A DNA stretch of 64,000 nt, taken from Amyelois transitella (taxonomy: Eukaryota > Arthropoda > Insecta > Lepidoptera > Pyralidae). The notes under the pieces are model-generated. The model saw only the letters and a program-made list of their open reading frames with translations, was not told the origin of the DNA and made no database searches. Made by a program: the position numbers and the translations under genes. Positions 13,031 through 42,572 of this stretch are shown piece by piece. How positions within the stretch are numbered: position 1 is the first letter of the stretch; every line of letters begins with the position of its first letter. The stretch lies in contig NC_083512.1 of the NCBI RefSeq assembly GCF_032362555.1, forward strand, positions 6,684,001-6,748,000, in the 5' to 3' direction.

Positions 13031-13035
13031 TATAG

Positions 13036-14349: not shown

Positions 14350-14445
14350 CAGGCAGCCAGACAGACCGAGCGGGATGGTGACGCACTGTGGATGCCCTCT
14401 GCCCCAGCTAGGGGACATAGGACCTTAAGTCAAGTCAAGTTACAG
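14350..14445 (+). mobile_element. LINE C-terminal/3' end fragment
   Basis: Reads DRAGW, a stop, RTVDALCPS, then AGGGGACATAGGACCTTAAG and AGTCAAGTCAAG. The DRxxWR.VDALCP pattern and the short 3' run are recalled features of a common insect LINE tail. Broken by stops. Confidence 0.5.
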
Positions 14446-15540: not shown

Positions 15541-15544
15541 GTTT

Positions 15545-15790
15545 CTTTGTTCTATGGTAAACATCGTGAGGAAAGATGTAAGTAGTTATGAACTAACAAT
15601 TAAGGCAGAATGAACTAGTTTGTGCATTATGAGAACAAATGTGCAACTATGATACAAGCTGGGTAAGATTATTCCATGCAGGGTTGCGGAGGTCAGATGA
15701 AAGTCACTTCATGTAAAAACGTGACTTACTTTCTCCAGGATCGTGTTCAAAGTAAGACCCTAAGCTCCTTTCCAGGAAGAGTATAACGAT
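15545..15790 (-). repeat. Repeat family D, reverse orientation
   Basis: Contains AACATCGTGAGGAAAGATGT and TGCGGAGGTCAGATGAAAGT, the complements of the CACGATGTT and GTCTGACCTCCGCA blocks of 3340-3705, in reversed order. Confidence 0.5.
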
Positions 15791-17290: not shown

Positions 17291-17297
17291 AGTTACT

Positions 17298-17320
17298 TTC
17301 AGTTCAGTTCAGTTCAGTTC
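17298..17320 (+). repeat. (TTCAG)n microsatellite
   Basis: Four and a half perfect TTCAG units. Confidence 0.9.
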
Positions 17321-17388
17321 ACGTCGACTATCAGCCAGTCACTCACTAACGCAAAAGTTAATTGCAGCCAAACTTAACCTACGGAAAA

Positions 17389-17425
17389 TTAAGGTAACAG
17401 GTATTTGATATCCCTGTTACCTTAA
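17389..17425. repeat. Perfect 13-bp inverted repeat
   Basis: TTAAGGTAACAGG (17389-17401) and exact complement (17413-17425), 11-nt spacer. Lies just outside the Helitron-like end at 17447. Confidence 0.85.
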
Positions 17426-17446
17426 CTTTGTTTAATATTTTATACT

Positions 17447-17764
17447 AGCTGTCGCCCGTGACTTCGTCCGCGTAAATTTCGCGTTCATACAGTCAGATAG
17501 ATAGACAGACAGACAAAAAATGTAAAAAAAATCTCTATCCGTTTCAGTCAAAATATTAAATGTACAGACAAAATATTTTTACCGTTTTATTTTATGTACT
17601 ATTTTAATTTTCAGTTTTTTTTTAAATAAAATACTCAAACAACACAAAAAAAAAATTCTCGTTTTTGTTGGGGGTCGAACTTGAACCGCCAACTTCACAG
17701 TCTGACGCGCTAACCACTGGACCATCGAGGCCGTTGCGGTGGTGTCGAAATTAAAGTAGACTAC
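17447..17764 (-). mobile_element. Helitron-like end with embedded tRNA-like segment
   Basis: The left end CTAGCTGTCGCCCGTGACTT is the complement of a ...GGGCGACAGCTAG terminus, as in lepidopteran non-autonomous Helitron-like elements that end in CTAG. The block at 17525-17595 (ATTTCAGTCAAAATATT-like, then ACAGACAAAATATTTTTACC) recurs at 18243-18318, so pieces of the same family are repeated here. Confidence 0.45.
17686..17738 (-). repeat. tRNA-like promoter segment
   Basis: The complement reads GCCTCGATGGTCCAGTGGTT, then AGCGCGTCAGACTGTGAAGT and GGCGGTTCAAGTTCGACCCC. A-box and B-box-like elements are present, but the arms do not pair as a full tRNA and there is no matching acceptor stem. It reads as a SINE head or tRNA pseudogene, not a working tRNA. 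Confidence 0.5.
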
Positions 17765-17950
17765 ATACATGTGATCACGTCTATATCCCTTGCGGGGTAG
17801 ACAGAGCCAACAGGCTTGAAAAGACTGAATGGCCACGTTCAGCTATTTGGTTTAATGACAGAATTGAGATTCAAATAGTGATAGGTAGCTCCCCCATCGC
17901 CTAAAAAAGAATCCCAAGTTTGTAAGCCTATCCCTTAGTCTCCTTTCACT
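17765..17950 (-). mobile_element. SINE-A 3' half
   Basis: Starts at the tail complement (ACATGTGATCACGTCTATAT), then CCCTTGCGGGGTAGACAGAG and the complement of the ACTATTTGAATCTCAATTCT block. The head is missing beyond 17950. Confidence 0.65.
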
Positions 17951-18059
17951 TTTATTTGTATGTTATAGGTATAATGCTGTCGTATAATGATAAATGACTT
18001 TGAATTTTAAATTTCGTAACTTATTTGCAGGCAAACTTATGCCTTGAGTTCATTCAAAT

Positions 18060-18330
18060 GTCGATAAATTTTTTAGTGAACCGATTTTGATGAAACGAAC
18101 TTTAAATGTTCTTCTGAGTTAAAACAAAGCAATTGGTGAAAGTTTTAAGTAAATCGGTTCAGTACTTTCGGAGATAATCGTGATCATACATACAGACAGA
18201 CAAGAAATTAAAAAATATATTTTTGCTTTCTATTATTCATTTTAAGTGACCCTCTATCCATTTCAGTCAAAATAACTAAATGTACAGACAAAATATTTTT
18301 ACTGTTTTATTATATGTATATAGATTATGA
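18060..18330 (-). mobile_element. Helitron-like fragment
   Basis: Contains AAATCGGTTCAGTACTTTCG, GAGATAATCGTGATCATACA and ends TTTTATTATATGTATATAGA, the complement of an ATCTATATACATATAATAAA-type 5' terminus that begins with TC. Confidence 0.45.
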
Positions 18331-19565
18331 ATCACATTCTACTGAGCCTTGCAATTACAGTTGTTCAGGGACATTCTCAATTACCAAAATAATGTTGACA
18401 TTTTAATGATTACATTAACATGTTCGTAAATAGCTTCGTTAATATCAATTAATCACATACTGTTCATTTTACAATCTATTTTAAAATTAATATTTTTTAT
18501 AACCTACATATGTTTCACAAATTTTTCATAATTCTTTTTCTAAGTTTTTTAAATTCTCTGCAATATTGTTAATTTTTCTCTTACCTAACTTCAACCACCT
18601 AGTAAAATGTTAATACAATTTTAAATAAGAAGTTTGATGAAAGGTTTAAGAAAACACAAAACATTGGTGCAGGAGACTCGGTTTTACAAAGGTTAAGGTC
18701 CAATTTGTACCGATAAAGATGGAACTTATAATTATTAAATGCACCAGAAGTAGGCACCTATTCATGCGACAATTCTACGAAGTTACTTAAAGAAAATCAT
18801 AAGTGGAAAGCACGGAATCGCTTGCTATGAAGACCACGTGTCACTTTATGAATAGCTTAATGAATATTACTTATATTTCAATATTAAACACTTGCGTGAC
18901 AGGTAATTGTTGGTAATTGGACAAGAGTGCTCGAAAACCCGGTCATATGGACTTTTATCGGAGCTCATAAACTAGACAGTTTTATCGTCGTGACTATTAA
19001 CCTAGGTACGCTTTTAACTTTGTAGGTAGTTTAAATCTAAATTTGTGATCTTTTTAACTATATAAAAAATTAATGTTCACTAAAAGATAGGCATCACTTT
19101 GGTAATTAATTAAAAATAACTAAAACAAGTTTAAAATTTTAATAACGTTTAGTTTATATAATTTTAAAATGGCACTTTGTTAAAATTTTCATATGTCAAC
19201 TTCTATGTCTAGTGAATCTTATAGGTACCTAGCGAAAATAGGTAAGCTGCAGAATATCTCTGCAAAAGTTTAAAGCAAAAGAAGTCGATTTTATACATAA
19301 GAAAATGTTACGGTTAACTGGTAGGTATAAACCAACGCAGTAAGTATGATATATCTAATGAAGAACACATTTTTGGAGAATAGGCACATTGAATATATGA
19401 AATTAAGAAACTTTCGCAATGAGGGCAATCAAGACCAAATATTAACTTAGTAAACAAAATAACTCAATTTTGTTTGCAAAGTTTGCACATCTAACCCGAA
19501 ATTATTGCAAAAGATGTAGACCGTGCTCATATAATACACATTATTTGGAATAATTAATAAAATAT
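18331..19565. other. Unassigned AT-rich DNA
   Basis: No supported gene, family repeat or strong inverted repeat. Confidence 0.4.
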
Positions 19566-19567
19566 TC

Positions 19568-19668
19568 AACATGAGCCATACAGCTGAATGTGGCATTTCA
19601 TTATTTTATAGACTGTTGGCTCTATTTTTCCCGTAAGGGATAAAGACTAGAAGATATGTATGTATATT
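19568..19668 (+). mobile_element. SINE-A 3' fragment
   Basis: GAGCCATACAGCTGAATGTG, then GACTGTTGGCTCTATTTTTC and a short TATGTATGTATA tail. Confidence 0.55.
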
Positions 19669-21195
19669 AGCTTACAGAGAAATCATTAATCAAAAAAATG
19701 TTTTAAAAACTCCACTCAGGCAATATAACTGGTGTTCGCAAAAAAGCATTTACAGGGAAATATGCTAATCTTGTTAATTAGCGGCGTCTGCCATCCTTCC
19801 CGCGGCTGTGGGAGAAAAATACTCTGGCGGTCTGACTTATGGGGGACATTAATATTGTCCGCACTTCCGGCTGGCACCCGCTTATTTTCCAGCTCCTAAA
19901 TCTGCCCATTGCAAATCACTACCACTTGTACACTCGCCCCAATGGGCAGCTTATTTTCACGGAAATTAAGCTGCTTAGAATAAACCGCTTGATATTACAT
20001 GGAAGTATTTATAGCAGTGTGGTTAACACCAATATTATTTTCTAGCAGTTGTTTTCGTATAGTAATTTAACATTTGCAAAGAAATATTCAAAAACACAAA
20101 CTCAGTCGGTTATAAAAACCGATCACAGCAGTGAATCAATTAAAAAAACTAAGACTAACTCATACATACAAAGATTAATTCGGTTGCGGCTTCTCGGGTA
20201 AATATTAATAATCAATTGAACAAAAAAAAAACACTTACATCAGCCGGGTATAGCGCTCGTCCTTAGTACTAGGTTATATGGTATTTTTAAACACCAGGGA
20301 TACATGTTAAGTATAAATCATTGCACAAAGAAATGCCGTTACGAATCGGACTACAAACTAATATTTCCCCCCTACCCACTTAACAAATAAAAAATTGTAC
20401 TGCAGTGGTTCATAACTTCGTAAGCAAACTAATAATACTTACCTATATTTGATGCTATTGACATGGTAGAAAAAGGTCACAGCGCATACCCTGCATTTTG
20501 GAATAAAATTTCGAGGTCGGCTTATGAATGATACCTAGTTCATGTATTGTAACTAGCAGTTTACAAAAAAGCTGATTTTGTTCATCATCATCTTTTTTTT
20601 AGTTTTTTTTATCTTTTTAGTTTATTTTGTTTTTGTTTTAGTTTATTTATCTTAATAGACATCTACAGGATAAGGTGGATTAGTTACGATCCCTGTTTTA
20701 CTTTTTTAGCTATTTCACAAACAACTTTACTGATTAATCTGATTTGCTGTAAGCTGACATTAATCTATTACATTCTTACATAATGATTCAAGGTCTTATA
20801 TCATGAAGATGGATGTATTAATCAAGTAGTAGTCAATTACTAAATTTCTTATCGCGCTGTTTTTCAGCGCCATTTATTAAGTAACAAATTTAAACACAGT
20901 TGCTTCATTTGTTTAAATTTATTATTTTTTTATATAAAGTATCCTATTTTTAAAGTCATAATTATGCAATTAGTAATCACCTCTGCCAAATATCAGAGAA
21001 ATCCATTGAGTAGATCCGCTCGGCTGTAGGTACGTTGATAGATAAGTCTGTCACAGTTACTATTTCTACGTTATAAATCCGACTATATTATTCCAAACGA
21101 CCTATTTTATTTATATGTGCTATGAGGTCTTCATCTTATAAGGGGTAGACTGCGCCAATTTTCTTAAGATTCAAAATTTGTCCTAAAATATTTTG
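19669..21195. other. Unassigned intergenic DNA
   Basis: A GC-richer block at 19785-19935 (GCGGCTGTGGGAGAAAAAT, GGCTGGCACCCGC) has no convincing frame. The rest is AT-rich without recognised content. Confidence 0.35.
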
Positions 21196-21214
21196 AATCT
21201 TGTGATACATAAAT

Positions 21215-21460
21215 AAATACATACATATAGTCACGTATATATCCCTTGCGAGGTAGACAGAGCCAACAGTCTTGAAAAGACAGAAAGGCAGCGTTCTTAA
21301 TGATGGAATTGAGTTTCAAATAGTGACAGGTTGCAAGCCCATTGCCTACAAGAGGAATCCCCAGTTTATAAGCCTGTCCCTCATTCGCCTTTTACGAAAA
21401 GGAAAGATATGGAGTGGTGTTATTTTACATAAAGTGTCGGGAGCCACACGGCACAAACTT
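21215..21460 (-). mobile_element. SINE-A, nearly full length
   Basis: Reverse copy: ACATATAGTCACGTATATATC, CCTTGCGAGGTAGACAGAGC and, at the right, the complement of the GTGTGGTTCCCGGCAC head. A deletion removes part of the 3' half near 21295. Confidence 0.7.
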
Positions 21461-21977
21461 GTGATCTTAAGGTGAAAGTTGTAAAGTTACGTAAAGTGTA
21501 AAAATAACTGTCTACTAAAAATAATGTTACAACATAAGCATTTAAAAATTCTTTTATTTATGTTCGTCATTCTGGTTTAAATTTGATAAGTAAAGAGAAC
21601 CTTTTAGTCCGTATTATATGTAGTTCATAGTATACTGTGAAAAATCCAGTAAATTGTAGTATGGAATTCTTGATAAAAACTATGCCTATCTCAATAAAAA
21701 AATGTGTGGGTATTTTACAAAGAAAACTAGTATTCGGATTACTGTTATCGTTATAAAATTTTTTTTATTTCTATTCTGTAATGTATCAAAGGAAAACTAA
21801 TAAATTATAAGAAAAGGCCAATGCAAAACAGTTAAATGTATCTCTTGATATCATTCAAAGGCCAGGCAAAATAATCAAATTAATATAAAAATACGAAAGT
21901 AAATTATTTGAATCACTTCTATATTGGGAGCTCTAGCGTTTTGTCACTTATCGGAATTATATCGTGTGGATAACAAT

Positions 21978-22248
21978 CTTGTGCCGTGTGGTTCCCGGCA
22001 CCAATAAAAAAACTAATAGTACCACTCCATCTCATTCCCATGGATTTCGTAAAAGGCGACTAAGGGGTAGGCAAATAAACTTGGGATTCTTCTCTTTAGG
22101 CGATGGGCTAGCAAGCTGTCAATATTTGAATCTCAATTCTATCTTAAAGCCAAATAGCTGAACGTGGCCTATCAGTCTTTGCATGACTGTTGGTTCTGTC
22201 TACCCCGCAAGGGATATAGACGTGATTATATGTATGTATGTATGTATG
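21978..22248 (+). mobile_element. SINE-A, full length
   Basis: A reference-quality copy: head TGCCGTGTGGTTCCCGGCAC, centre GTAAAAGGCGACTAAGGGGT and GGCGATGGGCTAGCAAGCTG, 3' block TCTGTCTACCCCGCAAGGGA, then (TATG)n. About 265 bp. Confidence 0.8.
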
Positions 22249-22324
22249 ATAACAATCTTCGTTGGAAAGAAAGTCACACTAGACTACAGGAAAATAATAC
22301 CCGCAATAGGAAAATATTACCCGC

Positions 22325-22570
22325 ATTAAGTCAAAAGCCGTTCCTGGCACTTCAGAATAGGAACACTCCAAATCTTTCTCGTGGATGTCGTAAAAATCGA
22401 CTAAGGGAACAGCTCATAAGCTTGGGATTATTCTTATAGACGATAGGCTAGCAACCTGTCACTATTTGAATCTCAATTCCATCACGTAGCCTATCAATCT
22501 TTACAAGATTGTTGGCTCTGTCTATCCCGCGAGGGATATAGACTTCACTACATATATGTATGTATGTTCG
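22325..22570 (+). mobile_element. SINE-A
   Basis: Follows the previous copy by about 80 bp in the same orientation, from CCTGGCACTTCAGAATAGGA to GAGGGATATAGACTTCACTA and a TATGTATG tail. Its head is diverged. Confidence 0.65.
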
Positions 22571-23011
22571 GCTTTTAAACACGCTAAGTATAGTGTTCTC
22601 AGTCGAATGAAATCCTCCGCTTGCCCCTGATATTTGGTTAGAGGGCATACAAAACCCAGTATGCAGACTATCTGTATTACTTTTTACATGCGGACGCACA
22701 AAGAACAGTTCTGTAAATCAGATGTATTGGCAGAGATTTATGTGCAAATAAACGACCGCACTGTCGCGCGGAATTATTTCAATTTAACGCCACCCGCCGA
22801 CGCGATAAATTCATGTGTGCTGTAGATAACTACTAAATAGGATTGATTTTCTCGTTAGCGTTAATTAACAGACCACGACCAAAAATCCCATTATTATTCC
22901 AATCAATGGATGCTATTGGTTTCAATCAATAATGTTTTGAGCTTTATATAAGCTTCATGACCCTTTCATTTATCCTAGTTTATATGTGGTAAAAAACATG
23001 TATGAGATATA

Positions 23012-23080
23012 TAATCAAGTCCTTATCTCTTACGGAGAAGACAGAGTCAAAAGTCTCGAAAAGCTGGATCATTCAAGATT
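23012..23080 (-). mobile_element. SINE-A 3' fragment
   Basis: ATCAAGTCCTTATCTCTTAC, then GGAGAAGACAGAGTCAAAAG: the complement of the SINE-A 3' end, diverged. Confidence 0.45.
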
Positions 23081-23129
23081 CAATGTCAGTATATGATAAA
23101 GAAAAATCCCGAAAATGAAAGCAGGTTGA

Positions 23130-23455
23130 CTATGCAGATATCTGTACATACAAGGAGAGTGTGGAGGAGGAGGGAAATGTCGGAGTGGGAAGGGTTCGTG
23201 TAACCCTTCCCACTCCGACACTTCCCTATACACGTACCGTATACGTTCCCTATAAACTTATCTTGATCAAATTTAGGACGTCCTGGCAAAGACTCAGGAC
23301 AAGAGTACCCGAAACCGCTGAGATTGCATGAAGAGAGTTTTGAATGTGGATGAAGCGAAGAAAGTATGCAGAGATCGTGGCAAGTGTAAAGATGTAGTCT
23401 CTGTCTACCCCTCCGGGAAAAAGTCGTGATTTTAGATATGTATGCATGTAAAAAT
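23130..23455 (+). mobile_element. LINE 3' end; left breakpoint of the duplication lies inside
   Basis: Same LINE tail as at 690 and 49383: ACAAGGAGAGTGTGGAGG, then CTTATCTTGATCAAATTTAG, then GCATGAAGAGAGTTTTGAAT and TCTGTCTACCCCTCCGGGAA. A hairpin (23178-23220) interrupts it. The continuous element crosses position 23321, where the duplicated segment begins, so this copy preserves the original junction. Confidence 0.7.
23178..23220. repeat. Perfect 19-bp hairpin inside the LINE tail
   Basis: Arms 23178-23196 and 23202-23220 are exact complements with a 5-nt CGTGT loop. The left arm is ordinary LINE sequence (GTCGGAGTGGGAAG also occurs at 49409); the right arm has no counterpart in the other copies. 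Confidence 0.9.
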
Positions 23456-23652
23456 CCCGAGCCTATTAGCCTTTTCCTTGATTGACCTTTACAATCTGCT
23501 CACATTGCTTTTTCTTCACTGCCAGGCCAGCATCTTCTACGCTATTTCCTTGAACTTCATGAATTTGCTCTTATTCCCTTAGTCGCCTTACGAAATTCAT
23601 GGAAAAGACCTGGTATGGTCCTATTTTAAAGTGCCGGCAACCACATGGCACC
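23456..23652 (-). mobile_element. SINE-A 5' half
   Basis: The right end GGTGCCATGTGGTTGCCGGC-type complement marks the head; TTAGTCGCCTTACGAAATTC is the complement of the GGCGACTAAG block. The 3' half is replaced by unrelated sequence. The duplicate lies at 31328-31524. Confidence 0.5.
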
Positions 23653-24215
23653 ATCGGCGGTAAAATAACAATAGAGAAAGGTTTAAAAATAGTTTAACTA
23701 TTATATCATAGAAAGCTTTAAACTAGTCTTAGGATCTCATAACTGAGATATTGCTATTGCCTAAATATGGTCAACAACAAGTAGACGCAAAGACAAACAA
23801 GCCGACAGTCTTGGCATCTTATTACAGAGACAGCTGACTATAAATAATTGCAGGGAAGGAGATGCTATACTTTAGGTACTTAATTAATGCAACAAAATCA
23901 CCTCTCATTTATTTACACTTTATATATTTTTCTATTAACTATATAACTATAAAATAGCACAACCAACTCGAACTGAAAGCTACATGCTATTAATATTTAC
24001 CTGTGCTTTGTATGTATGTACTCTCTAGAAACACTAGTATTGAATAGGATCTATGTTAAATTATGCTTAACATTAAATAATGAACTGAGGTAAAGATTCA
24101 GTCTCTCGTTTACAATTCATATATAACTGATACACACAAAGCGTTCCTGTAAATTATTATTCACACATACATATTTATGTATTGAAGTATCAGCGCTTAA
24201 GTATTACAGAGTATT

Positions 24216-25172
24216 TTATTTTTCCGGCAAAGTAAATTTAACTAATCTTTCAGACTCCGCCCAAAGCCGTCTCGCGGCATCTCCGTCTTGTGATGTTTTT
24301 GACGGCTTCTTCTGACGACAATCGCTGAAATATTTCCCACTAACTCCACTCACCTCCGGTGACACCGCTAAGTATATACAAGTCTGTGAAGCCTCCCAAG
24401 GCGTTTGGAACATAAATCTTATACTCCTTTCAACCAAACAACGGACATAGTAGTAAGGAATGTTTCTGAAAATATTCGTTGCAGATACTCCCGGATGCAC
24501 CGCGTTGACAGTGACACCGGTGGCTTTTAACCTCTTACTCAGTTCCAAAGTCATTAAATTCATAAAAAGTTTACTGTTCGCATACACGAGTTGATCACTC
24601 CAATACTTCTCCATATTTAAATTATCGAAATCAAGTATGCCATAATGATGTATAAGGGAAGATAAGTTAATAATTCTACTAGGAGCAGATTTTTTCAGCA
24701 GTGGTAGTAAAAGACAGGTTAGCAGGAAACTCGCGTAAAAATTCACCTGCATACCAATTTGGAGGCCATCTTCACTGGTATAATTTCCTAGACCGCCCGA
24801 TGCTGCATTATTGATGAGTACATCAATTCTTTTCTCTGTCTTTATTATATTATCACAAAACTCACGAACGGAGCGGAGCGAACCCAAGTCCAACTGTCGG
24901 CAATGAACGTCTGTGTTTCCTGTTTCTTTAACGATTAATTCTTTAGCTGCTTCCGCGAGGCGCATGTTCCTGCAGGCCATTATCACTCTTGCACCGCGGA
25001 ACGCCAAATCTTTTGCTACTTCGAATCCCAGACCGCTGTTAGCTCCTGTCACTATAACCACTTTTCCGACCATGTGAGCACTCGACTTACATATAGCATG
25101 AGTTAATTTTTGATAAATTTTTACTGTCATGACTAATATCACTATTATAAAGAATATTGTCCATAAAATCAT
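24216..25172 (-). CDS. Short-chain dehydrogenase/reductase, retinol dehydrogenase-like (copy 1)
   Basis: An intact intronless frame of 318 residues, normal for the RDH11-14-like SDR group. Residues 1-20 form a hydrophobic N-terminal membrane anchor. The Rossmann motif TGANSGLG is at 42-49, NNAA at 121-124, the catalytic Ser at 171-172, YANSK (Tyr197, Lys201) at 197-201 and HPG at 226-228. All catalytic residues are present, so activity is expected: NAD(P)-dependent oxidation or reduction of retinoid-like or other lipophilic alcohols and carbonyls at the ER membrane (family knowledge; the substrate cannot be read from sequence). The ATG is the first in frame and starts the anchor. The gene lies in a recent duplication and has an identical twin at 32088-33044. 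Related members sit at 36196 (pseudogene) and 41048. Confidence 0.93.
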   Translation of the reverse strand: MILWTIFFIIVILVMTVKIYQKLTHAICKSSAHMVGKVVIVTGANSGLGFEVAKDLAFRGARVIMACRNMRLAEAAKELIVKETGNTDVHCRQLDLGSLRSVREFCDNIIKTEKRIDVLINNAASGGLGNYTSEDGLQIGMQVNFYASFLLTCLLLPLLKKSAPSRIINLSSLIHHYGILDFDNLNMEKYWSDQLVYANSKLFMNLMTLELSKRLKATGVTVNAVHPGVSATNIFRNIPYYYVRCLVERSIRFMFQTPWEASQTCIYLAVSPEVSGVSGKYFSDCRQKKPSKTSQDGDAARRLWAESERLVKFTLPEK

Positions 25173-27520
25173 GGTAATTTTTAACTGAATAAAGAATTAA
25201 CACTATACTAGGATTATGTGTTTATAGGTAAAACACGTCCGTTTCGAGGTGATTATTTTTTAAAATATAATATCGCAAAGAGGTCGCGAGATAAGCGTTG
25301 TCACGCTGCGGCTATACATAATCACACATGTGAAACTAGATAAGGTCGCTCCACAATTATGTTTACATTTATAGAACGAGCCGTCCCTGAAATACGCTTG
25401 GTCAAGTCTATTTCTAAAAACATTGAAGTATGCTGTAATACTTATATAATTAACCATCAACCAACATAAACATACTTTCTATGATACCATTATTTGCAAG
25501 CGATAAAAGGCGGATAGTAGGTAGTCACCAACCAAGTTTTGGTGATATTCAACATACAAAAATTAGATTTACTTAAGCTAAGTAAAAACAAAAGGATGGA
25601 ATAATTTCTGATATATTTTTATAAAAAAAATATTGACAAATACAAGAAAACTAAAAACGTGAGGAACATGTCTGTGCATGATAATTGTGTCGAATGATAA
25701 ACGTGACTTTTTGCCTTTACACGATACTTGAAGTTGATAAATGAATGGATGTATTGTTACCAAGTTTCGACAAACGCAGGGTAAGAAAATATCCTAAAAT
25801 ATTATTTATTTATAAATTTTAACTGAAATATCAGTATGGACACTCTATTCGGCATCCCATAAGTGCCAATTCACATTATTTTGTAATCTACTGAATTCTC
25901 ACTCTACTAGAACATTTCTACAAACGATGGACAAAATACATTTATTTTATGAACATTCCTTCTGCAGTTACATTGATTAAGCATCTAATCAGATGATGAA
26001 AAGCATTTACGAGCTGACTAATGTTTTATTATAAGCAATCGGCGCCAAAAGACGTAGGCTATTGTTGTTCCAACTATGTTAGTGGCTCATAACTTGGGCC
26101 ACTAAACATAATGGCTTCCCATTCCATTAGAGAAATGCCTGTCACTGGTAATTTGACATTTGATATACCCAGTGAAATGTAACGGGTATGATTACTTGAT
26201 TAGATATCTCGTGCCCTCGTATGTACATTTTACCTCGGTCAGAATTATTAATTTTATTCCTGAACCCTCAATTTTCAGACCCCGTTTCATAAATCTAGGG
26301 TAATTGGCAGAAAGGTAAAAACATATATTTTTTTATCGAATTTTCATGTACACGCAATCTTTTTAGGTACATACTTTTTCGCTTTAAGTGGAAATGGAAA
26401 TTATATAGAGCAACACAGCACATAGGATTCACAACTTTCTCAAAAAGCACGGCAGTACCTTGCTATTTTCGAAGTAATTCAGACAATATAATTTTCTTGT
26501 AAATAACTCTTTAATTTCCGTGTAAATAAAACTTAAGAGGCCTTAATTTTCAGACACCATGCAACCATTGAATTTTTCATTTTATGAATGACTTACTTCG
26601 GAAATGTTAATAAGTAGTTTGTAAATAGGTACTTTTAATAAAAGACTTTTCTACTATTTCTACTACAAATTTTTTACGGTTAGTCTCACTTAAAACTCTT
26701 ACTTTTCTTAGCATTATTCTCCAATGCCATAACAGGGTAGCGGATTAATTTAACGTGAAAAAAGCAAAATGGACAGTGCTATTTTTCAGCCGACGAAGAG
26801 GGCTGAATTATATAGCTCCGCAATTTACCGCGTCATGTGACATCAAACGATCTCATTACTGCCGGGACACCATTAAATTTTTAATTTTTTTATTAGAGAA
26901 GAGATATCTTAACTAAAACATAAATATTTAAAAATATGTATTTGAGGACCATAATTTTTGGAAACACAAAGTTAACTCTGTAAGTTGGTAAGAATTACTT
27001 TTTAAATACTAAACTGGCTTTCATTTCAATTTAATTTATTTTAATTGATAGTAAATTAATCATTATAATGTATTATTCAAGAAAAACATCAATAATCACC
27101 TCCGGAAATTACCAAAAAATTTCATTTTATGTGCTTTCAGTAAGCCCTCTCTGAAAATTTCTTCCACGGCCGGTTATTTTGAATGCTAATTAATTTTCCC
27201 CGCCGTAATACTTATTTCAAAAGGCTGTAAAACTCCTTTAAAACGCTGGATTGCTTAGTGAAGTGTATTATATTAATTAATTAAGCTCAACCTGCCTAAT
27301 TAGCCCGTAGACAAAATCCGAGCAAACTGCGAGAGGCTTCAATTCCGCGATGTCCTTTATTGTCGAACTTATGAGCCGTCGAACCTTTCGATGCCTATTT
27401 CAAGCTCTTTATATGTTAAAATACCGTCAAGTACGAGTTCTGTACCATTATCTCCTATTAATAATTATGAGCCCGAATGAAACAGGTAGGTTTTAATTTT
27501 TTTTGTATATAAATGTAAAT
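25173..27520. other. Upstream intergenic part of the duplicated segment
   Basis: The 5' side of the SDR gene, AT-rich. Small frames at 25260-25460 and 25578-25763 (-) recur in copy 2 only because the DNA is identical. No clear TATA/initiator pair at canonical spacing was found for the SDR gene. Confidence 0.4.
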
Positions 27521-27523
27521 GCC

Positions 27524-27786
27524 GTGCCGTGTGGTTCCCGGCACCAATACAAAAAAGAATAGGACCACTCCATCTCTTTCCCATTGATGTCGTAAAAGGC
27601 GACTAAGGGATAGGCTTACAAACTTGGGATTGTTTTTTAGGCGATGGGCTAACAACCTGCCACTAGTTGAATCTCAATTCTATCGTTAAGCCAAATAGAT
27701 GAACGTGGCCATTCAGTTTTTTCAAGACTGTTGGCTCTGTCTACCCCGCAAGGGATATAGACGTGACCATGTATGTGTGTGTGTAT
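27524..27786 (+). mobile_element. SINE-A, full length
   Basis: Head GCCGTGTGGTTCCCGGCACC, all internal blocks, 3' block ACCCCGCAAGGGATATAGAC and a GTATGTGTGTGTGTATG tail. Duplicated at 35396-35658. Confidence 0.8.
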
Positions 27787-28091
27787 GATGTACGGACTTC
27801 TTTCTCTAATTTAAAAGTTATTATTACGTAGATAACTATATTCAATTATAATAATAATATAAAGAAATCTGTGTTTCACATAGTTTCACGGCAAATTCAT
27901 TTATCAATTTGAATTTTTATTATATATAGGTGCATATCTTAATTATAAACTTGCCCATCCTGTACATTACATACGAGTTTAAAAGTCACCTTTATATAAA
28001 CTGAGATAGGCAGTCATTTAAGTTCGTTAAACCACCTTGTTTCCTAAATAAATCGTAAATTGGGTTTTTTCCTGAGAAAATATTAACAAAC

Positions 28092-28740
28092 TAGCTGTTG
28101 CCCGCAACTCCGTTTGCGTGTTATTGGAAATACGAAGGTTAAGGTTATTAAATTTACACAAATTCACCAAAATAAATTTCTACGAAATTTGGCATTACAT
28201 ACGATATATCTTGGATTAATAAATATTACTTTGCCCCAGGGCACAGACAGGTGACACTAAATATTTAATAATTCGTTCTAATATTATACATAGAAAAAAG
28301 ATTTGTATTTTTGTTTGTAACGAATAAACTCTATTTCGGATAGTTTAGCTGATTTGTAATGGTTCTGCATCAGGTGTTCCAATTGTTCGATTTTTATACG
28401 CTAACAGAAAATGCCTAATGAGGCTGATTAATTTATGTTAAGACGTCTTTTCGATATTTAATATAGTTAAGCTGAGCTGTTATGGTTCCACATCAGCTGT
28501 TCTAGATTCCAAAAAAAATTTAACTATATACATATGTCGGCCAGACATCAGAGCTATCCAACAAAAAAGTTTCATTCAAATCTGTTCAGTAGTTCCAGAT
28601 ATTAGCGTGTACATACAAACAGACAGACTTTTTTTTAAATTCAAGCTCGGTTACTATTTCTTTAACATGATAAATATTTTTTTGAAAACATACTCAATGC
28701 ACCGACAATTTTTTTTAATTTTTTATTATATGTATTGATG
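28092..28740 (-). mobile_element. Helitron-like element
   Basis: The left end ACTAGCTGTTGCCCGCAACT is the complement of a CTAG-ending terminus. The right end carries ATCTGTTCAGTAGTTCCAGA, TTAGCGTGTACATACAAACAG and TTTTATTATATGTATTGATG, the complement of an ATCAATACATATAATAAA 5' end. About 650 bp, non-coding, so non-autonomous. Confidence 0.5.
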
Positions 28741-28977
28741 AATTAATGAAAACTTTATTGCTTTGGAAAAAAATATATCAACTATGCCATACGATGATTA
28801 AGTAACTTTTTTTTATTTATTTTTATGTAGTTACCTTCTGATTAACTCCATTTTTCCATTATACTTACCTACTTATAAGAATAGTACGCAGAATTGATTA
28901 AACCCATTGCACCCACATCTCTCTTGGAATAAAATACCTGAATTTCAGCGTATGTATCACAGGTACTTTTATACCTA

Positions 28978-29138
28978 AACTTGAGATTCTTCTTTTAGGC
29001 GATGGGCTAGCAATCTGCCACTATTTGAATCTCATCAAGCCAAAAAGCTAAACGTGGCCTATCAGTCCTTTCAAGACTGTAGGCTTTGTCACCCCCCGCA
29101 AGGAATAAAGACGTGACTATTTATGTATGTATCACAGA
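28978..29138 (+). mobile_element. SINE-A 3' half
   Basis: TTTTAGGCGATGGGCTAGCA, then GTCCTTTCAAGACTGTAGGC and CCGCAAGGAATAAAGACGTG with a TATGTATG tail. Confidence 0.6.
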
Positions 29139-29455
29139 TACTTGTAAGAAGGTTTCATCAAAATTGAGTATTAATGTAGGTATGTATGGACTAATACAAA
29201 GCTCGGGTAGAAAGTGGTGGAAGTGGAAGAAGATAACGTTAAAAAGTCCATCTAAAGAGGAATAAAAATTATTTAATGTGCTTTAGTGTCAATTTTCGTT
29301 GCCAAATGTATACCTAAGTAAATATACTAGTAATGATCCTCAGTTTTTAGATTCACCACATCATCCGTGATAAAGATATAGCAAAGAACAATTTCGTACG
29401 CCTAGAACGTACCTCACCGCATCCATGAAGGCAGCTCTTTTTCATTTTACTTGCT

Positions 29456-30235
29456 ACTAGCTGTTGCCGACGCCCGCGACTTCGTCCAACTTAAAATGAA
29501 ATCTGTGTGATAAGATAGATAGATAGATAAAATTCTTTATTGTACATAATAAGAGTAAAACATACAAAACAGCAAAAAAACAGACAGCGATGGTAGGTAC
29601 AAAGGCCTCATCGCTAATGCAATCTCTTCCAGTCAACCTTTGGGTGGAAAGAAAATAAGTCTCAATTTCAGTGGTTTTATTTTCATTGTATAGCTCTTAT
29701 GCCTGGCCAACATATAGGTTATAATTTATTTTGAAATCTAGAACAGCTAATATCGAACTATAACTCTGCCCTGGTATAACTAAAATGCTGTTATCTGCCA
29801 AATCCTTGTTTTAAGTAAAACGTCAAAAACTGCGGTAAAAATTTAAACTGATGCCATTCATCAATGAGAACGCCTATTTATGACTTAAAGGTACCAAAAA
29901 GTCGTATATACAGATCGAAAGAGATTTTTTTTCTTATTTTACTGGTAAAAAAGGTGTAAATCCTGATGTCAGATAACGGCATTTTAGTTATACCACGGCA
30001 GAACTACTCAACTAAACCATAGGAAATATCGAAATGACGTCTTGACAAAAGTTGTTCAACCTGATGAACATTTTCTTTGGGCGAAAAAAAATGGAAGATC
30101 TGGATCATGTGATGTAGAAGCCAAAGAGACGAGCTACTCTGTAATATGTACCTACCGAAATAAGTAAATTTTATAACCTTAACATTGGTTTTTCCAATAA
30201 CACGCAAACGAAGTTGCGGGCAACAACAACTAGTC
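29456..30235. mobile_element. Interval bounded by opposed Helitron-like ends, with nested LINE tail and foldback
   Basis: Left end: ACTAGCTGTTGCCGACGCCC at 29456. Right end: GTTGCGGGCAACAACAACTAG, ending at 30233, the same terminus in the opposite direction. Within lie a reverse LINE 3' end (29517-29640, with (GATA)n and TTCTTTATTGTACATAATAA, ending in the complement of GGTTGACTGGAAGAGATTGC) and a 32-bp inverted repeat with two mismatches (29766-29797 and 29971-30002). No coding capacity. Confidence 0.45.
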
Positions 30236-31192
30236 AGTAATATAATTGGTATTTAATTCATCTGAAATCATCATCAAAACATCAAAATACATTTGGCTTA
30301 CAAAGTGCCGTCAGTGCCTCTCTTATCGAATATACCAATTCGTTACTCGTTAAATTGCTATTGTTAATGTTTAAACAAAATCTAAATATAAAAGAAAAAC
30401 GTGGTTCATGTTCTATTGATAACTATGTTTATATTTCAAGGCAGACTTATCAGTTACAAAATAAAATTTTACCATCTCAATCACATATTGAAGCACCAGA
30501 AGTCAAATCTTCCTTTTTGTAGGACATTTGGAGCACTTTCATATTTATGATATCAACCTGTATTTAATTTTTTTTTTTCCTATTGTAAGAACCCTCAACT
30601 ATTTAAGATTAACCCAAAGGTCTGTGAAGGACACTGAAGAATCTATACAGATTTATGTGGCTGATACCATATTTAACATAATAACTGTGACCTTTTGATT
30701 ATATTTATTGCTGTACCCCTGAAATACCTATCATTTCGAGACGTTGGCTTTCTATAAGAAAACATTAGGTATACTTATTTAATCGTTCTTCAAATAACGA
30801 TAATATAAATTAAACAGATGTGTGTGATGATATCATAAGGTCAAATGTTACTTTCCAGATAAATTCGGTTTAGATCGGTCTGTCTGCACTTCATTATTTG
30901 TATAACCTATCATTTTGGTTTGAATCTGTATACTAATATAACTTGTCTTTTAACAGCTGAGACTACACATTTTTGATGCATTGATAAAAATTGTGTTAAC
31001 TATACCATGATTTAGAAAACAATAACTTGTTTGAAAATTATTTTTAGGTTACCGCTACAGCGAATCCTTACCGTCAGCTTGTATACTGTATGTTATGTCG
31101 CCTTGTCTTAGTGTATTTTATTACAAAAACACCAGAAGATTTTTCACTGAAAAGGAATAGCTATTCACTAAACGTACCTACTACTATACTAT
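30236..31192. other. Unique spacer before duplication copy 2
   Basis: No gene or repeat family recognised. It ends abruptly at 31192/31193, where copy 2 begins in the middle of LINE sequence. Confidence 0.45.
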
Positions 31193-34100
31193 AGATTGCA
31201 TGAAGAGAGTTTTGAATGTGGATGAAGCGAAGAAAGTATGCAGAGATCGTGGCAAGTGTAAAGATGTAGTCTCTGTCTACCCCTCCGGGAAAAAGTCGTG
31301 ATTTTAGATATGTATGCATGTAAAAATCCCGAGCCTATTAGCCTTTTCCTTGATTGACCTTTACAATCTGCTCACATTGCTTTTTCTTCACTGCCAGGCC
31401 AGCATCTTCTACGCTATTTCCTTGAACTTCATGAATTTGCTCTTATTCCCTTAGTCGCCTTACGAAATTCATGGAAAAGACCTGGTATGGTCCTATTTTA
31501 AAGTGCCGGCAACCACATGGCACCATCGGCGGTAAAATAACAATAGAGAAAGGTTTAAAAATAGTTTAACTATTATATCATAGAAAGCTTTAAACTAGTC
31601 TTAGGATCTCATAACTGAGATATTGCTATTGCCTAAATATGGTCAACAACAAGTAGACGCAAAGACAAACAAGCCGACAGTCTTGGCATCTTATTACAGA
31701 GACAGCTGACTATAAATAATTGCAGGGAAGGAGATGCTATACTTTAGGTACTTAATTAATGCAACAAAATCACCTCTCATTTATTTACACTTTATATATT
31801 TTTCTATTAACTATATAACTATAAAATAGCACAACCAACTCGAACTGAAAGCTACATGCTATTAATATTTACCTGTGCTTTGTATGTATGTACTCTCTAG
31901 AAACACTAGTATTGAATAGGATCTATGTTAAATTATGCTTAACATTAAATAATGAACTGAGGTAAAGATTCAGTCTCTCGTTTACAATTCATATATAACT
32001 GATACACACAAAGCGTTCCTGTGAATTATTATTCACACATACATATTTATGTATTGAAGTATCAGCGCTTAAGTATTACAGAGTATTTTATTTTTCCGGC
32101 AAAGTAAATTTAACTAATCTTTCAGACTCCGCCCAAAGCCGTCTCGCGGCATCTCCGTCTTGTGATGTTTTTGACGGCTTCTTCTGACGACAATCGCTGA
32201 AATATTTCCCACTAACTCCACTCACCTCCGGTGACACCGCTAAGTATATACAAGTCTGTGAAGCCTCCCAAGGCGTTTGGAACATAAATCTTATACTCCT
32301 TTCAACCAAACAACGGACATAGTAGTAAGGAATGTTTCTGAAAATATTCGTTGCAGATACTCCCGGATGCACCGCGTTGACAGTGACACCGGTGGCTTTT
32401 AACCTCTTACTCAGTTCCAAAGTCATTAAATTCATAAAAAGTTTACTGTTCGCATACACGAGTTGATCACTCCAATACTTCTCCATATTTAAATTATCGA
32501 AATCAAGTATGCCATAATGATGTATAAGGGAAGATAAGTTAATAATTCTACTAGGAGCAGATTTTTTCAGCAGTGGTAGTAAAAGACAGGTTAGCAGGAA
32601 ACTCGCGTAAAAATTCACCTGCATACCAATTTGGAGGCCATCTTCACTGGTATAATTTCCTAGACCGCCCGATGCTGCATTATTGATGAGTACATCAATT
32701 CTTTTCTCTGTCTTTATTATATTATCACAAAACTCACGAACGGAGCGGAGCGAACCCAAGTCCAACTGTCGGCAATGAACGTCTGTGTTTCCTGTTTCTT
32801 TAACGATTAATTCTTTAGCTGCTTCCGCGAGGCGCATGTTCCTGCAGGCCATTATCACTCTTGCACCGCGGAACGCCAAATCTTTTGCTACTTCGAATCC
32901 CAGACCGCTGTTAGCTCCTGTCACTATAACCACTTTTCCGACCATGTGAGCACTCGACTTACATATAGCATGAGTTAATTTTTGATAAATTTTTACTGTC
33001 ATGACTAATATCACTATTATAAAGAATATTGTCCATAAAATCATGGTAATTTTTAACTGAATAAAGAATTAACACTATACTAGGATTATGTGTTTATAGG
33101 TAAAACACGTCCGTTTCGAGGTGATTATTTTTTAAAATATAATATCGCAAAGAGGTCGCGAGATAAGCGTTGTCACGCTGCGGCTATACATAATCACACA
33201 TGTGAAACTAGATAAGGTCGCTCCACAATTATGTTTACATTTATAGAACGAGCCGTCCCTGAAATACGCTTGGTCAAGTCTATTTCTAAAAACATTGAAG
33301 TATGCTGTAATACTTATATAATTAACCATCAACCAACATAAACATACTTTCTATGATACCATTATTTGCAAGCGATAAAAGGCGGATAGTAGGTAGTCAC
33401 CAACCAAGTTTTGGTGATATTCAACATACAAAAATTAGATTTACTTAAGCTAAGTAAAAACAAAAGGATGGAATAATTTCTGATATATTTTTATAAAAAA
33501 AATATTGACAAATACAAGAAAACTAAAAACGTGAGGAACATGTCTGTGCATGATAATTGTGTCGAATGATAAACGTGACTTTTTGCCTTTACACGATACT
33601 TGAAGTTGATAAATGAATGGATGTATTGTTACCAAGTTTCGACAAACGCAGGGTAAGAAAATATCCTAAAATATTATTTATTTATAAATTTTAACTGAAA
33701 TATCAGTATGGACACTCTATTCGGCATCCCATAAGTGCCAATTCACATTATTTTGTAATCTACTGAATTCTCACTCTACTAGAACATTTCTACAAACGAT
33801 GGACAAAATACATTTATTTTATGAACATTCCTTCTGCAGTTACATTGATTAAGCATCTAATCAGATGATGAAAAGCATTTACGAGCTGACTAATGTTTTA
33901 TTATAAGCAATCGGCGCCAAAAGACGTAGGCTATTGTTGTTCCAACTATGTTAGTGGCTCATAACTTGGGCCACTAAACATAATGGCTTCCCATTCCATT
34001 AGAGAAATGCCTGTCACTGGTAATTTGACATTTGATATACCCAGTGAAATGTAACGGGTATGATTACTTGATTAGATATCTCGTGCCCTCGTATGTACAT

Positions 34101-35793
34101 TTTACCTCGGTCAGAATTATTAATTTTATTCCTGAACCCTCAATTTTCAGACCCCGTTTCATAAATCTAGGGTAATTGGCAGAAAGGTAAAAACATATAT
34201 TTTTTTATCGAATTTTCATGTACACGCAATCTTTTTAGGTACATACTTTTTCGCTTTAAGTGGAAATGGAAATTATATAGAGCAACACAGCACATAGGAT
34301 TCACAACTTTCTCAAAAAGCACGGCAGTACCTTGCTATTTTCGAAGTAATTCAGACAATATAATTTTCTTGTAAATAACTCTTTAATTTCCGTGTAAATA
34401 AAACTTAAGAGGCCTTAATTTTCAGACACCATGCAACCATTGAATTTTTCATTTTATGAATGACTTACTTCGGAAATGTTAATAAGTAGTTTGTAAATAG
34501 GTACTTTTAATAAAAGACTTTTCTACTATTTCTACTACAAATTTTTTACGGTTAGTCTCACTTAAAACTCTTACTTTTCTTAGCATTATTCTCCAATGCC
34601 ATAACAGGGTAGCGGATTAATTTAACGTGAAAAAAGCAAAATGGACAGTGCTATTTTTCAGCCGACGAAGAGGGCTGAATTATATAGCTCCGCAATTTAC
34701 CGCGTCATGTGACATCAAACGATCTCATTACTGCCGGGACACCATTAAATTTTTAATTTTTTTATTAGAGAAGAGATATCTTAACTAAAACATAAATATT
34801 TAAAAATATGTATTTGAGGACCATAATTTTTGGAAACACAAAGTTAACTCTGTAAGTTGGTAAGAATTACTTTTTAAATACTAAACTGGCTTTCATTTCA
34901 ATTTAATTTATTTTAATTGATAGTAAATTAATCATTATAATGTATTATTCAAGAAAAACATCAATAATCACCTCCGGAAATTACCAAAAAATTTCATTTT
35001 ATGTGCTTTCAGTAAGCCCTCTCTGAAAATTTCTTCCACGGCCGGTTATTTTGAATGCTAATTAATTTTCCCCGCCGTAATACTTATTTCAAAAGGCTGT
35101 AAAACTCCTTTAAAACGCTGGATTGCTTAGTGAAGTGTATTATATTAATTAATTAAGCTCAACCTGCCTAATTAGCCCGTAGACAAAATCCGAGCAAACT
35201 GCGAGAGGCGTCAATTCCGCGATGTCCTTTATTGTCGAACTTATGAGCCGTCGAACCTTTCGATGCCTATTTCAAGCTCTTTATATGTTAAAATACCGTC
35301 AAGTACGAGTTCTGTACCATTATCTCCTATTAATAATTATGAGCCCGAATGAAACAGGTAGGTTTTAATTTTTTTTGTATATAAATGTAAATGCCGTGCC
35401 GTGTGGTTCCCGGCACCAATACAAAAAAGAATAGGACCACTCCATCTCTTTCCCATTGATGTCGTAAAAGGCGACTAAGGGATAGGCTTACAAACTTGGG
35501 ATTGTTTTTTAGGCGATGGGCTAACAACCTGCCACTAGTTGAATCTCAATTCTATCGTTAAGCCAAATAGATGAACGTGGCCATTCAGTTTTTTCAAGAC
35601 TGTTGGCTCTGTCTACCCCGCAAGGGATATAGACGTGACCATGTATGTGTGTGTGTATGATGTACGGACTTCTTTCTCTAATTTAAAAGTTATTATTACG
35701 TAGATAACTATATTCAATTATAATAATAATATAAAGAAATCTGTGTTTCACATAGTTTCACGGCAAATTCATTTATCAATTTGAATTTTTATT
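31193..35793. repeat. 4,601-bp segmental duplication, copy 2
   Basis: The near-identical twin of 23321-27921, in direct orientation. Its left end cuts into the LINE tail (starting AGATTGCATGAAGAGAG) with unrelated DNA before it, and its right end stops at 35793 followed by unrelated DNA. It includes a second full SDR gene, the SINE-A 5' half at 31328-31524 and the full SINE-A at 35396-35658. Confidence 0.9.
32088..33044 (-). CDS. Short-chain dehydrogenase/reductase, retinol dehydrogenase-like (copy 2)
   Basis: The protein is identical, residue for residue, to that of 24216-25172 (318 residues; anchor, TGANSGLG, NNAA, catalytic Ser and YANSK all present). Its flanks are also identical for about 0.9 kb downstream and 2.7 kb upstream, so promoter-proximal sequence came with the copy and both genes could be expressed alike. 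Neither of the two mismatches seen in the segment touches the coding region. That means either a very recent duplication or gene conversion, or an assembly duplicate. If real, gene dosage of this enzyme is doubled. Confidence 0.9.
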   Translation of the reverse strand: MILWTIFFIIVILVMTVKIYQKLTHAICKSSAHMVGKVVIVTGANSGLGFEVAKDLAFRGARVIMACRNMRLAEAAKELIVKETGNTDVHCRQLDLGSLRSVREFCDNIIKTEKRIDVLINNAASGGLGNYTSEDGLQIGMQVNFYASFLLTCLLLPLLKKSAPSRIINLSSLIHHYGILDFDNLNMEKYWSDQLVYANSKLFMNLMTLELSKRLKATGVTVNAVHPGVSATNIFRNIPYYYVRCLVERSIRFMFQTPWEASQTCIYLAVSPEVSGVSGKYFSDCRQKKPSKTSQDGDAARRLWAESERLVKFTLPEK

Positions 35794-35821: not shown

Positions 35822-35854
35822 CTAGGCGAACTGGTATTATACCAGTTCGCCTAG
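35822..35854. repeat. 33-bp perfect palindrome near the duplication end
   Basis: CTAGGCGAACTGGTAT (35822-35837), one central T, then the exact complement (35839-35854). It begins 29 bp beyond the right breakpoint of copy 2. Confidence 0.9.
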
Positions 35855-36195: not shown

Positions 36196-37111
36196 ATGTT
36201 GCTTTTACCTATAATTGCCCTGATTATTGTCATATTTTAGCAAGTTTGCTGTTTAATAAGTTAACATGTGGTTTATGTAAATGTAGTAAACATTTAGTGG
36301 GTAAAGTAGCAATCGTCACCGGAGGAAACGCAGGTATAGGATATGAAACGGCAAAGGATCTTGCCGAGAGAGGGGCGCGAGTTATCCTGGCGTGTCGGAA
36401 CGAGCAACGCGGCACGACAGCACGAGACAAAATGATTGCTCACACGGGCAACAAGGAGGTACTCTTTAAAAAACTTGATTTAGCATCTTTGAAATCAGTG
36501 AGAGACACACGTCTAGATATTCTTATGAATAATGCTGCTATGGGTAGTACAGAAAATGTGAAGACTGAAGATGGATTACTGCAGGGAATGCAAACTAATC
36601 ATTTTGCACCATTTCTTCTCACATCTTTGTTACTTCCAATATTGAAATCTTCAGCGCCTAGTCGGATCGTTACCGTATCTTCCATTGCACATTACAAAGG
36701 AACAATAGATTTAGACGATTTGAACATGGAAAATGAAACAGAAAAATTTAGCGATTTCAAAGTATATGCTGCTTCAAAACTGTGCAATGTTCTCATGACG
36801 GTTGAACTAGCACGCCGGCTAAAGGGTACTGGAGTCACTGCTAATGCTTTGCACCCAGGGGCAGTTAACACTAATATTTGGTTAAATGTACCCGTTGCTA
36901 AGAATTTACCATTTATATTAAAGCCTTTTTTCAAAACAGCCTGGGAAGGTGCACAACGACGATCTATCTAGCTGTTTCTCCAAAAGTGAAAGATGTCAGC
37001 AGATACTATTATACTGATTGCCGTCAAACGCCTGCCTCTTCGTTAACTAATGACACTGAACTGTGTAGAAAACTTTGGACTGTTTCAGAAAAAAACCTTA
37101 AAATGAAATAA
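36196..37111 (+). pseudogene. SDR pseudogene related to the 41048 gene
   Basis: The closest relative is the intact SDR at 41048-41995. An ATG at 36196 starts the anchor (MLLLPIIALIIVIF) but a stop at 36238 ends it. The homologous frame resumes shifted near 36234 and runs as LLFNKLTCGLCKCSKHLVGK. TGGNAGIG, NNAA, the SS pair and YAASK are all present. Nine codons are missing in frame between KSVR and RLDIL. A one-base deletion after WEGAQ (about 36957) causes a stop at 36969; in the shifted frame the true tail continues (TIYLAVSPKVKDV ... CRQTPASS) to TAA at 37111. With two frameshifts and a deletion it cannot make a full enzyme, though it is young enough to align throughout. An ATTAAA lies at about 37259. 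Confidence 0.85.
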
Positions 37112-41047: not shown

Positions 41048-41995
41048 TCATTTCAGTTTAACAAGTTTTTCCGATACAGTCCAAAGTTTTTGAGCCAGTT
41101 CAGTGTCTCTGGCTAACTCGGATGTAGGTTTTTGACGACAATCAGAATAATAGTATCCGGTGACATCTTCAACTTCTGGTGAAACTGCCAAATAGATTGT
41201 AGTTTGCGCGCCTTCCCAGGACGTTTTCATAAAAGGCTTAGCAATAAATCTAAAATACTTGCCCCATGGTACGGTGGTCAATAAATTAGTGTAAACAGCA
41301 CCTGGATGCAGAGAATTCGCTGTGACTCCAGTACCTTTTAGCTGTCGAGCCAGTTCTACTGTCATCAAGACATTGCATAATTTCGACAAAGCATACACCT
41401 TGTTCACACTATAAGTTTTTTCTGTTTCTTTTTCCATGTTCAAGTTGTCTAGGTCTATCTTCGACATGGTGTGTGCTAATGACGACACATTGATAATGCG
41501 ACTAGGCGCTGAAGATTTTAACAACGGTAATAACAAATACGTGAGTAGGAAAGGTCCGAAATGATTGGCTTGCATTCCCAGTAGTAATCCATCTTCAGTC
41601 TTTACGTTTTCTGAACCGTACAAAGCAGCATTGTTGATGAGAATATCTAGACGTTTTTCAGTTTTTAACACGTCATTAGCGAATTCTCTCACTGATTTAA
41701 ATGAAGCTAGATCGAGTTTCTTGAATACTACCTCCTTGTTACCTGTTTCAGTAATAATTTGATCTCTTGCTGTAGTTCCGCGTTGTTCATTACGACACGC
41801 CAATATGACTCTGGCACCTCGGTCCGCCAAGTCCTTAGCAGTCTCATATCCTATCCCTGTATTGGCTCCCGTCACTATTACCACTTTTCCTACTAAATGT
41901 TTACTACATTTACATAATCCACTAGTTAACTTATTATACAGTAAAAGAACTAAAGCTAAAATAATATTTAGGGCAATTATTGATAACAAAATCAT
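41048..41995 (-). CDS. Short-chain dehydrogenase/reductase, retinol dehydrogenase-like
   Basis: An intact intronless frame of 315 residues. The hydrophobic anchor is at 1-20, TGANTGIG at 42-49, NNAA at 121-124, catalytic Ser at 171-172, YALSK (Tyr201, Lys205) at 201-205 and the HPG loop at 230-232. All expected SDR residues are kept. It is clearly a paralogue of the duplicated gene at 24216/32088, and is much closer to the pseudogene at 36196. The predicted role is an NAD(P)-dependent membrane-bound oxidoreductase on retinoid-like or other hydrophobic substrates; this is inferred from the family. It follows the cluster pattern of dispersed single-exon copies on either strand. No canonical TATA/initiator pair was found just upstream. 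Confidence 0.92.
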   Translation of the reverse strand: MILLSIIALNIILALVLLLYNKLTSGLCKCSKHLVGKVVIVTGANTGIGYETAKDLADRGARVILACRNEQRGTTARDQIITETGNKEVVFKKLDLASFKSVREFANDVLKTEKRLDILINNAALYGSENVKTEDGLLLGMQANHFGPFLLTYLLLPLLKSSAPSRIINVSSLAHTMSKIDLDNLNMEKETEKTYSVNKVYALSKLCNVLMTVELARQLKGTGVTANSLHPGAVYTNLLTTVPWGKYFRFIAKPFMKTSWEGAQTTIYLAVSPEVEDVTGYYYSDCRQKPTSELARDTELAQKLWTVSEKLVKLK

Positions 41996-42572
41996 TTTGA
42001 TGTCGGTGTTGGTTGACTGGATAATGTAGCTGCAGGTGAGTAAGTGCTACGATTATAGTACACATAATCAAAAAAGAGATATCTTATATCAGATATATTT
42101 TTTTTTATCATTACATTACAAGCTTTTTTTATCAGTAATATATTGCAATTCCTCAGTAAACTTATGCAAGAGGATCTTCTCAAACATTTTATCTTTATAT
42201 TAGTGTATCAGTAGTGTATCAAAAGATAAACCAATGAATAACTTCAGAAAAATTATATCATTCATCTGATGTTGCTTAAAATCACATCAGTGCATTTTAA
42301 ACTTTTACCATAAAATATAAGCAAAAGTTATATAAGAGTACTCAAAGAGAGCTGTATCGAAAATATGGAACATTGGCGAGTAGCGAATGCCGAACTTTGT
42401 CGAAACTTGATCCTTTGGGTATATCCGGAAAAACATTTTAAAATTCAGTAAGAAATTGCATTGCTGTGAGGTGGACGTGACGGGCAGAGGCGATCTATAA
42501 CATTCCTAAAATATTTGAAAATACAATTCTTAGAGATGATTCTTATATCTGTTCGCATACTCCATATGCGGA

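Follow-up and report, generated by a model that had tools for sequence, protein, structure and literature searches.

The available portions of the literature on local duplication describe several systems that resemble parts of the arrangement reported here. Hastings et al. 2009 (PMC2621351) treat complex duplications that arise by fork stalling and template switching (FoSTeS) or microhomology-mediated break-induced replication (MMBIR), Pace et al. 2009 (PMC2671141) describe repair-mediated duplications that capture proximal DNA (largest unequivocal case, 619 bp), and Tan et al. 2021 (PMC8277862) describe Pack-TIR gap filling. New duplications in Drosophila are predominantly tandem (~80%), with the rest dispersed (PMC3207856). 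The locus analysed here lies in a 64-kb stretch of the Amyelois transitella genome (hereafter the window; C8:6684001-6748000, in an assembly of 327 Mb and 33 contigs), in which a 4,601-bp segment bearing an intact SDR gene occurs twice in the same orientation. Judged from the sequence, the reading that we favour, with roughly even confidence, is one or more real, very young local rearrangements of the template-switch or error-prone break-repair type. The event appears to be a further, clear instance of an established class of duplication rather than a new mechanism.

In what follows, A denotes the duplicated segment, X the DNA separating its two copies, X' a downstream near-copy of X, U a 32,604-bp tandem unit, and R the DNA to the right of A copy 2 (Table 1). 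The locus was viewed in a joined sequence of 314 kb, and window-scale coordinates therefore run beyond the window, negative positions lying to its left. The observed part of the analysis consists of the sequences, their edges, and the copy numbers of the searched pieces; genome-wide counts were confined to the right-hand 967 bp of X, 2,201 bp of the interior of A, and 2 kb at the start of U. For comparison, a 4-kb control segment has 1 full-length place genome-wide, its 39 further rows being ~200-bp pieces of a dispersed repeat.

The two copies of A match without gaps over 4,601 bp at an offset of 7,872. Only two positions differ (24151 A/G and 27338 T/G; 0.04% divergence), and identity along the same diagonal stops abruptly beyond both ends (0.215 on the left and 0.325 on the right over 200 bp). 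Each copy carries the SDR gene together with ~2.7 kb of upstream and ~0.9 kb of downstream sequence. The two SDR frames are identical, neither mismatch falling within the gene; the one at 24151 is 65 bp past the stop codon. This comparison bears out the original prediction, made from the window alone, that an SDR gene is doubled by a direct, almost perfect repeat whose copies differ by two substitutions outside the coding region, and it supports a very recent duplication of the intact gene. The searched interior of A occurs at 2 places genome-wide, and a further, third match to bases 1-622 of A is found 9.3 kb beyond the left end of the window. An allelic divergence of 1% would be expected to produce 46 differences in A, compared with the 2 observed, and the flanks of copy 1 and copy 2 are not similar; because the differences are too few and the flanks dissimilar, a plain concatenation of two haplotypes is rejected for A. 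The left edge is informative about which junction is older. A long interspersed nuclear element (LINE)-like repeat, whose label is taken from the original prediction and whose open reading frame matched no Pfam family, is uninterrupted at 23321, where copy 1 begins; two relatives (49427-49625 and 860-990) likewise extend without a break past the corresponding position. The resemblance in copy 2, by contrast, sets in exactly at 31193. As had been proposed, the repeat is thus whole in copy 1 but truncated in copy 2, which indicates that, of the two left junctions, the one at copy 2 is new.

The 3,271 bp between the copies had been described as unrelated DNA, which is correct with respect to A itself, but X proves to be a near-copy of local DNA on the same chromosome. 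It aligns in three blocks to X' (window-scale 74678-81238), with 28 mismatches in the BLAST blocks and, in a global alignment, 31 mismatches over 3,132 bases (1%) and 13 small gaps. X' contains a ~3.0-kb transposable element (TE; 76807-79814) with inverted ends GGCGGGTCCACACA and a 5-bp direct repeat TAATA, for which X shows the exact empty site, and it lacks ~65 bp found in X (29643-29707). Such differences give X the appearance of a second allele of X'. The homology opens at the first base past A copy 1, with 0 bp of microhomology at the A/X joint, and ends 10 nt short of copy 2; the searched right-hand part of X occurs at 2 places genome-wide.

A second and larger duplication, of 32.6 kb, lies mostly to the left of the window and was therefore invisible to the original prediction. 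The unit U is repeated head to tail (-41269 to -8662 versus -8665 to 23942; C8:6642731-6707942) in a 32,608-bp match with 0 mismatches, and its copies abut, unlike those of A. Its right end falls 622 bp into A copy 1, and its joint shares 4 bases, CTAT (chance of at least 4, ~0.02 if each base is assumed to match with probability 0.27). For 2 kb at the start of this unit there are 2 full-length places genome-wide, the 55 further rows being pieces, nearly all of a dispersed repeat. Inside U there is also a Copia-type long terminal repeat (LTR) retrotransposon (-4029 to 25), with a long open frame containing RVT_2, rve, and gag domains and with LTRs of 142 bp that are 99.3% alike.

These edges would be read most simply as A duplicated in tandem, the seam being occupied by X and the 10-nt filler; A copy 1 would then retain the old left flank and copy 2 probably the old right flank. 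The presence of the arrangement in the animal, its older order, the number of events (one or two), and the enzymology are all reached by inference from the observed sequences. The older order would have been U - A - R - ... - X'. Copying would have proceeded through U as far as base 622 of A before a 32.6-kb jump back at the 4-bp microhomology, then through U and the whole of A before a forward jump to X' on a TE-less allele, and finally, after addition of the 10-nt filler, back to the start of A, which would have been read again and on into R. Along this path the chromosome would gain 40,476 bp net, including a second intact SDR gene. All pieces are in unchanged orientation, the donors lie within ~125 kb on one chromosome (C8), the searched pieces are found nowhere else at full length, and the three joints are of mixed type (4 bp at U, 0 bp at A/X, and the 10-nt filler at X/A). 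Local donors, constant orientation, and mixed joints together fit serial template switching or break repair.

Other orders of events have been weighed against the same edges. It had been claimed that the duplication is not a simple tandem one and that copy 2 is a derived, inserted copy. The copies of A indeed do not abut, and a simple tandem duplication of A alone is rejected because they are 3,271 bp apart, but a tandem duplication with X at the seam is the simplest order. Copy 2 does have a new junction on its left, but the insertion of a whole copy between an older X and R is unsupported, since the X/X' homology runs from the end of A to 10 nt before copy 2. Such an insertion is hardly credible: it agrees with the LINE-like repeat being unbroken in copy 1 and broken in copy 2, but A must end exactly at the edge of the X/X' homology and land no more than 10 nt from the other edge, and no target-site duplication was found at copy 2. 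Because a tandem duplication with an insert would need two new joints to account for the edges of A and of X, it is preferred over the insertion of A between X and R. A highly unlikely route in two steps would place X next to A first, duplicate the 7,872-bp A+X unit in tandem, and then delete the second X; the sequence contains one passage from A to X and one from X to A, and each step is a common type of event, but the deletion must begin exactly at the A/X edge and the start of R shows no trace of X.

Element-borne copying was also considered for copy 2, at whose edges neither inverted- nor direct-repeat element ends were found. Helitrons characteristically begin with 5' TC, end with CTRR at the 3' end, and insert between A and T; capture by such an element is rejected, as the copy ends are AG...TT and the site is T/C. 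A retrocopy is rejected because the edges of copy 2 show neither a poly(A) tail nor a target-site duplication, and because long non-coding flanks were copied too. A Pack-TIR origin is rejected on a comparison in which 1 kb of X was joined to 1 kb of R, a comparison that bears on the insertion site only; no long inverted pair was found across the join, only a local 33-bp palindrome. Re-insertion of a circle would normally be expected to give a permuted copy and is rejected, since the copies of A are collinear.

Compared with the described systems, as far as the available texts portray them, the locus shares several features with FoSTeS/MMBIR (PMC2621351): the duplications are local, nearby segments are inserted at a joint, several switches lie close together, and one joint has short microhomology. 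It differs in that one joint is blunt and one contains filler, and in that the genome is insect-like whereas the described cases are human disease alleles. As in the duplications of Pace et al. (PMC2671141), the donor is near the acceptor and filler is found at a breakpoint, but A (4.6 kb) and X (3.3 kb) far exceed both the 619-bp maximum and the general size of hundreds of bp. As in Pack-TIR gap filling (PMC8277862), nearby DNA is copied with little or no microhomology; unlike there, the copied A was not found bracketed by an inverted-repeat TE.

The surroundings of A offer a possible reason for such switching, as in the inferred older order A sits between two strong hairpins. These are 2 of the 4 best in the window (p 0.0014; 0.014 when all 12 listed hairpins are considered), a relationship that was noticed post hoc. 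The left hairpin is a quasi-palindrome in the LINE-like repeat and itself appears to be a small inverted insertion missing from two relatives; small inverted insertions of this type are what template switching leaves behind. Replication may have stalled at the two hairpins. The strongest hairpin of the window lies elsewhere (9858-9913; 25-nt perfect arms and a 6-nt loop).

Table 1. Positions of the duplicated segments, SDR genes, and associated features in the window
Feature	Position	Strand	Description
Second U unit, portion in window	1..23942	+	Unit starts 8.7 kb left of window
Strong hairpin	23171..23227		93 bp left of A copy 1
LINE-like repeat	23252..23449		Spans left edge of A copy 1; broken at 31193 in copy 2
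Segment A copy 1	23321..27921	+	4,601 bp
SDR gene, copy 1	24219..25172	-	318 aa, single open frame, PF00106
X	27922..31182	+	Near-copy of C8 DNA ~47 kb downstream (X'); without 3.0-kb TE and 301 bp present there
Filler at X/A joint	31183..31192	+	10 nt, ACTATACTAT, missing from X'
Segment A copy 2	31193..35793	+	4,601 bp
SDR gene, copy 2	32091..33044	-	Identical to copy 1 gene
Strong hairpin	35822..35854		28 bp right of A copy 2
Neighbouring SDR pseudogene	36198..37111	+	Early stop, frame change
Neighbouring intact SDR paralogue	41051..41998	-	Protein ~55% identical to duplicated gene

Assembly error was rightly kept open as an alternative in the original prediction. Part or all of the arrangement could have been produced by setting overlapping contig ends in series, which would give U twice, and by threading X, a piece of the other haplotype, between two passes of A; this is a credible explanation, although it is less probable than a real rearrangement. 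Several observations weigh in its favour and against a real event, beginning with U, which is free of mismatches over 32.6 kb. A perfect tandem repeat of this length is difficult for ordinary long-read assembly and is readily produced by joining overlapping contig ends. The difference between X and X' (1% plus the presence or absence of a TE) is far above that between the copies of A (0.04%) or U (0), and an allele-like X is explained equally well by an assembly that mixed haplotypes and by later recombination. Microhomology is also lacking at the A/X joint, and the explanation by a single event is weakened by the location of both mismatches in A and none in the 32,604-bp U (p 0.015 under one age). 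Finally, the 60 rows of a whole-genome SDR search include one further perfect pair, on C19 (5749011-5761778), where an SDR-bearing 3,987-bp unit occurs twice with 0 mismatches and is joined by a 7-bp filler. A 4,776-bp P-element-like TE (PF21787-PF21789), flanked by 11-bp direct repeats, interrupts the second copy there close to its midpoint. The pair may have arisen by tandem duplication, with the TE arriving later, or it may be a single locus whose two alleles, one without and one with the TE, were placed in series. The near-symmetry of the two arms (1,989 and 2,009 bp), which recalls the second possibility, is uncomfortable for the interpretation as a real event. The allele-like X and the perfect C19 duplication are what keep the artefact explanation alive, and the available text of one study describes false duplications as frequent in assemblies (PMC9516828).

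Other features are at odds with an artefact. Neither the window nor any part of the 314 kb, joints included, contains a single N, and there is thus no gap between the copies. The locus resembles the false duplications portrayed in the available part of that study (PMC9516828) in having near-identical copies on one scaffold and a seemingly allelic X and X', but differs from them in the lack of a gap and in the flanks of A, which are not allelic. The U joint has 4-bp microhomology and the X/A joint a 10-nt filler, and two real differences separate the copies of A. The 314 kb contain no other repeats of at least 500 bp and at least 97% identity except one variable-number tandem repeat (VNTR), and 93 P450 rows, read by eye, include no equal-score pair on one contig. 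The VNTR (window-scale 91491-92938) has a 172-bp period with units more than 99% alike. A literature search surfaced nothing on tandem duplications made by contig overlap or on the letters of the repeat.

Mutation rates of 2.9e-9 per site per generation for Heliconius and 4.1e-9 for silkworm are given in the available text of one source (PMC10048334), and ages were computed with the Heliconius value. The duplication of A would date to ~75,000 generations (Poisson range 9,000-271,000) and that of U to less than ~15,900 generations (95%). The difference between X and X' corresponds to ~1.7 million generations, but it has the size of an allelic difference, comparable to the heterozygosity of ~1.9% reported for the wood tiger moth in the portion of that paper available (PMC7433188), and need not date the event. 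Real copying of a TE-less allele followed by recombination, or an assembly that mixes two alleles, would each yield this divergence. Conversion, polishing, and base errors make all of these ages soft. A bolder scenario, which is offered tentatively and considered unlikely, is that of one germline replication accident with multiple jumps, a small direct-orientation chromoanasynthesis, which would have added 40.5 kb in one step, been provoked by the hairpins bracketing A, occurred less than ~16,000 generations ago (by the perfect 32.6-kb repeat), and still be segregating; filler-marked events of this kind would double SDR genes repeatedly, with C19 as a second case.

The duplicated gene belongs to a family with other members nearby and elsewhere. 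Its PF00106 profile score is 115.6 bits (cut-off 26.6), whereas NF004846, the best-scoring NCBIfam subfamily, reaches 200.2 where 268 is required, and no subfamily is assigned; retinol dehydrogenase 11-14-like is a candidate name, likewise not assigned. Besides the two copies in A, 13 of the 60 SDR rows are open relatives with at least 290 residues matched at 37-56% identity, mostly on other chromosomes. A search of the literature surfaced nothing on SDR or retinol dehydrogenase duplications in Lepidoptera. When viral contigs were scanned, the SDR protein found 4 stretches, none of them confirmed, and the 33-nt repeat pattern found no match.

Other repeats occur in the window away from A and U. 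Between 5476 and 8919 there is a cluster of related segments (73-96% pairwise identity) with C2H2-like and PHD-finger pieces, one of which matches PF00628 at 24.8 bits (cut-off 24). A tRNA-His call at 39231-39304 falls on the leading end of a dispersed repeat, probably a tRNA-derived short interspersed element, to which 9193-9386 and 42579-42726 are related.

The window alone pointed to a different order of events, and the facts that decided between the orders lie outside it. If the arrangement is an artefact, annotation based on this assembly would list one SDR gene too many, along with a spurious 32.6 kb of neighbourhood. If it is real, the locus would record an insect germline duplication with several joints almost unchanged by age, its donors still close by and its path readable base by base, and the two identical intact SDR genes may bring about a change in dosage.

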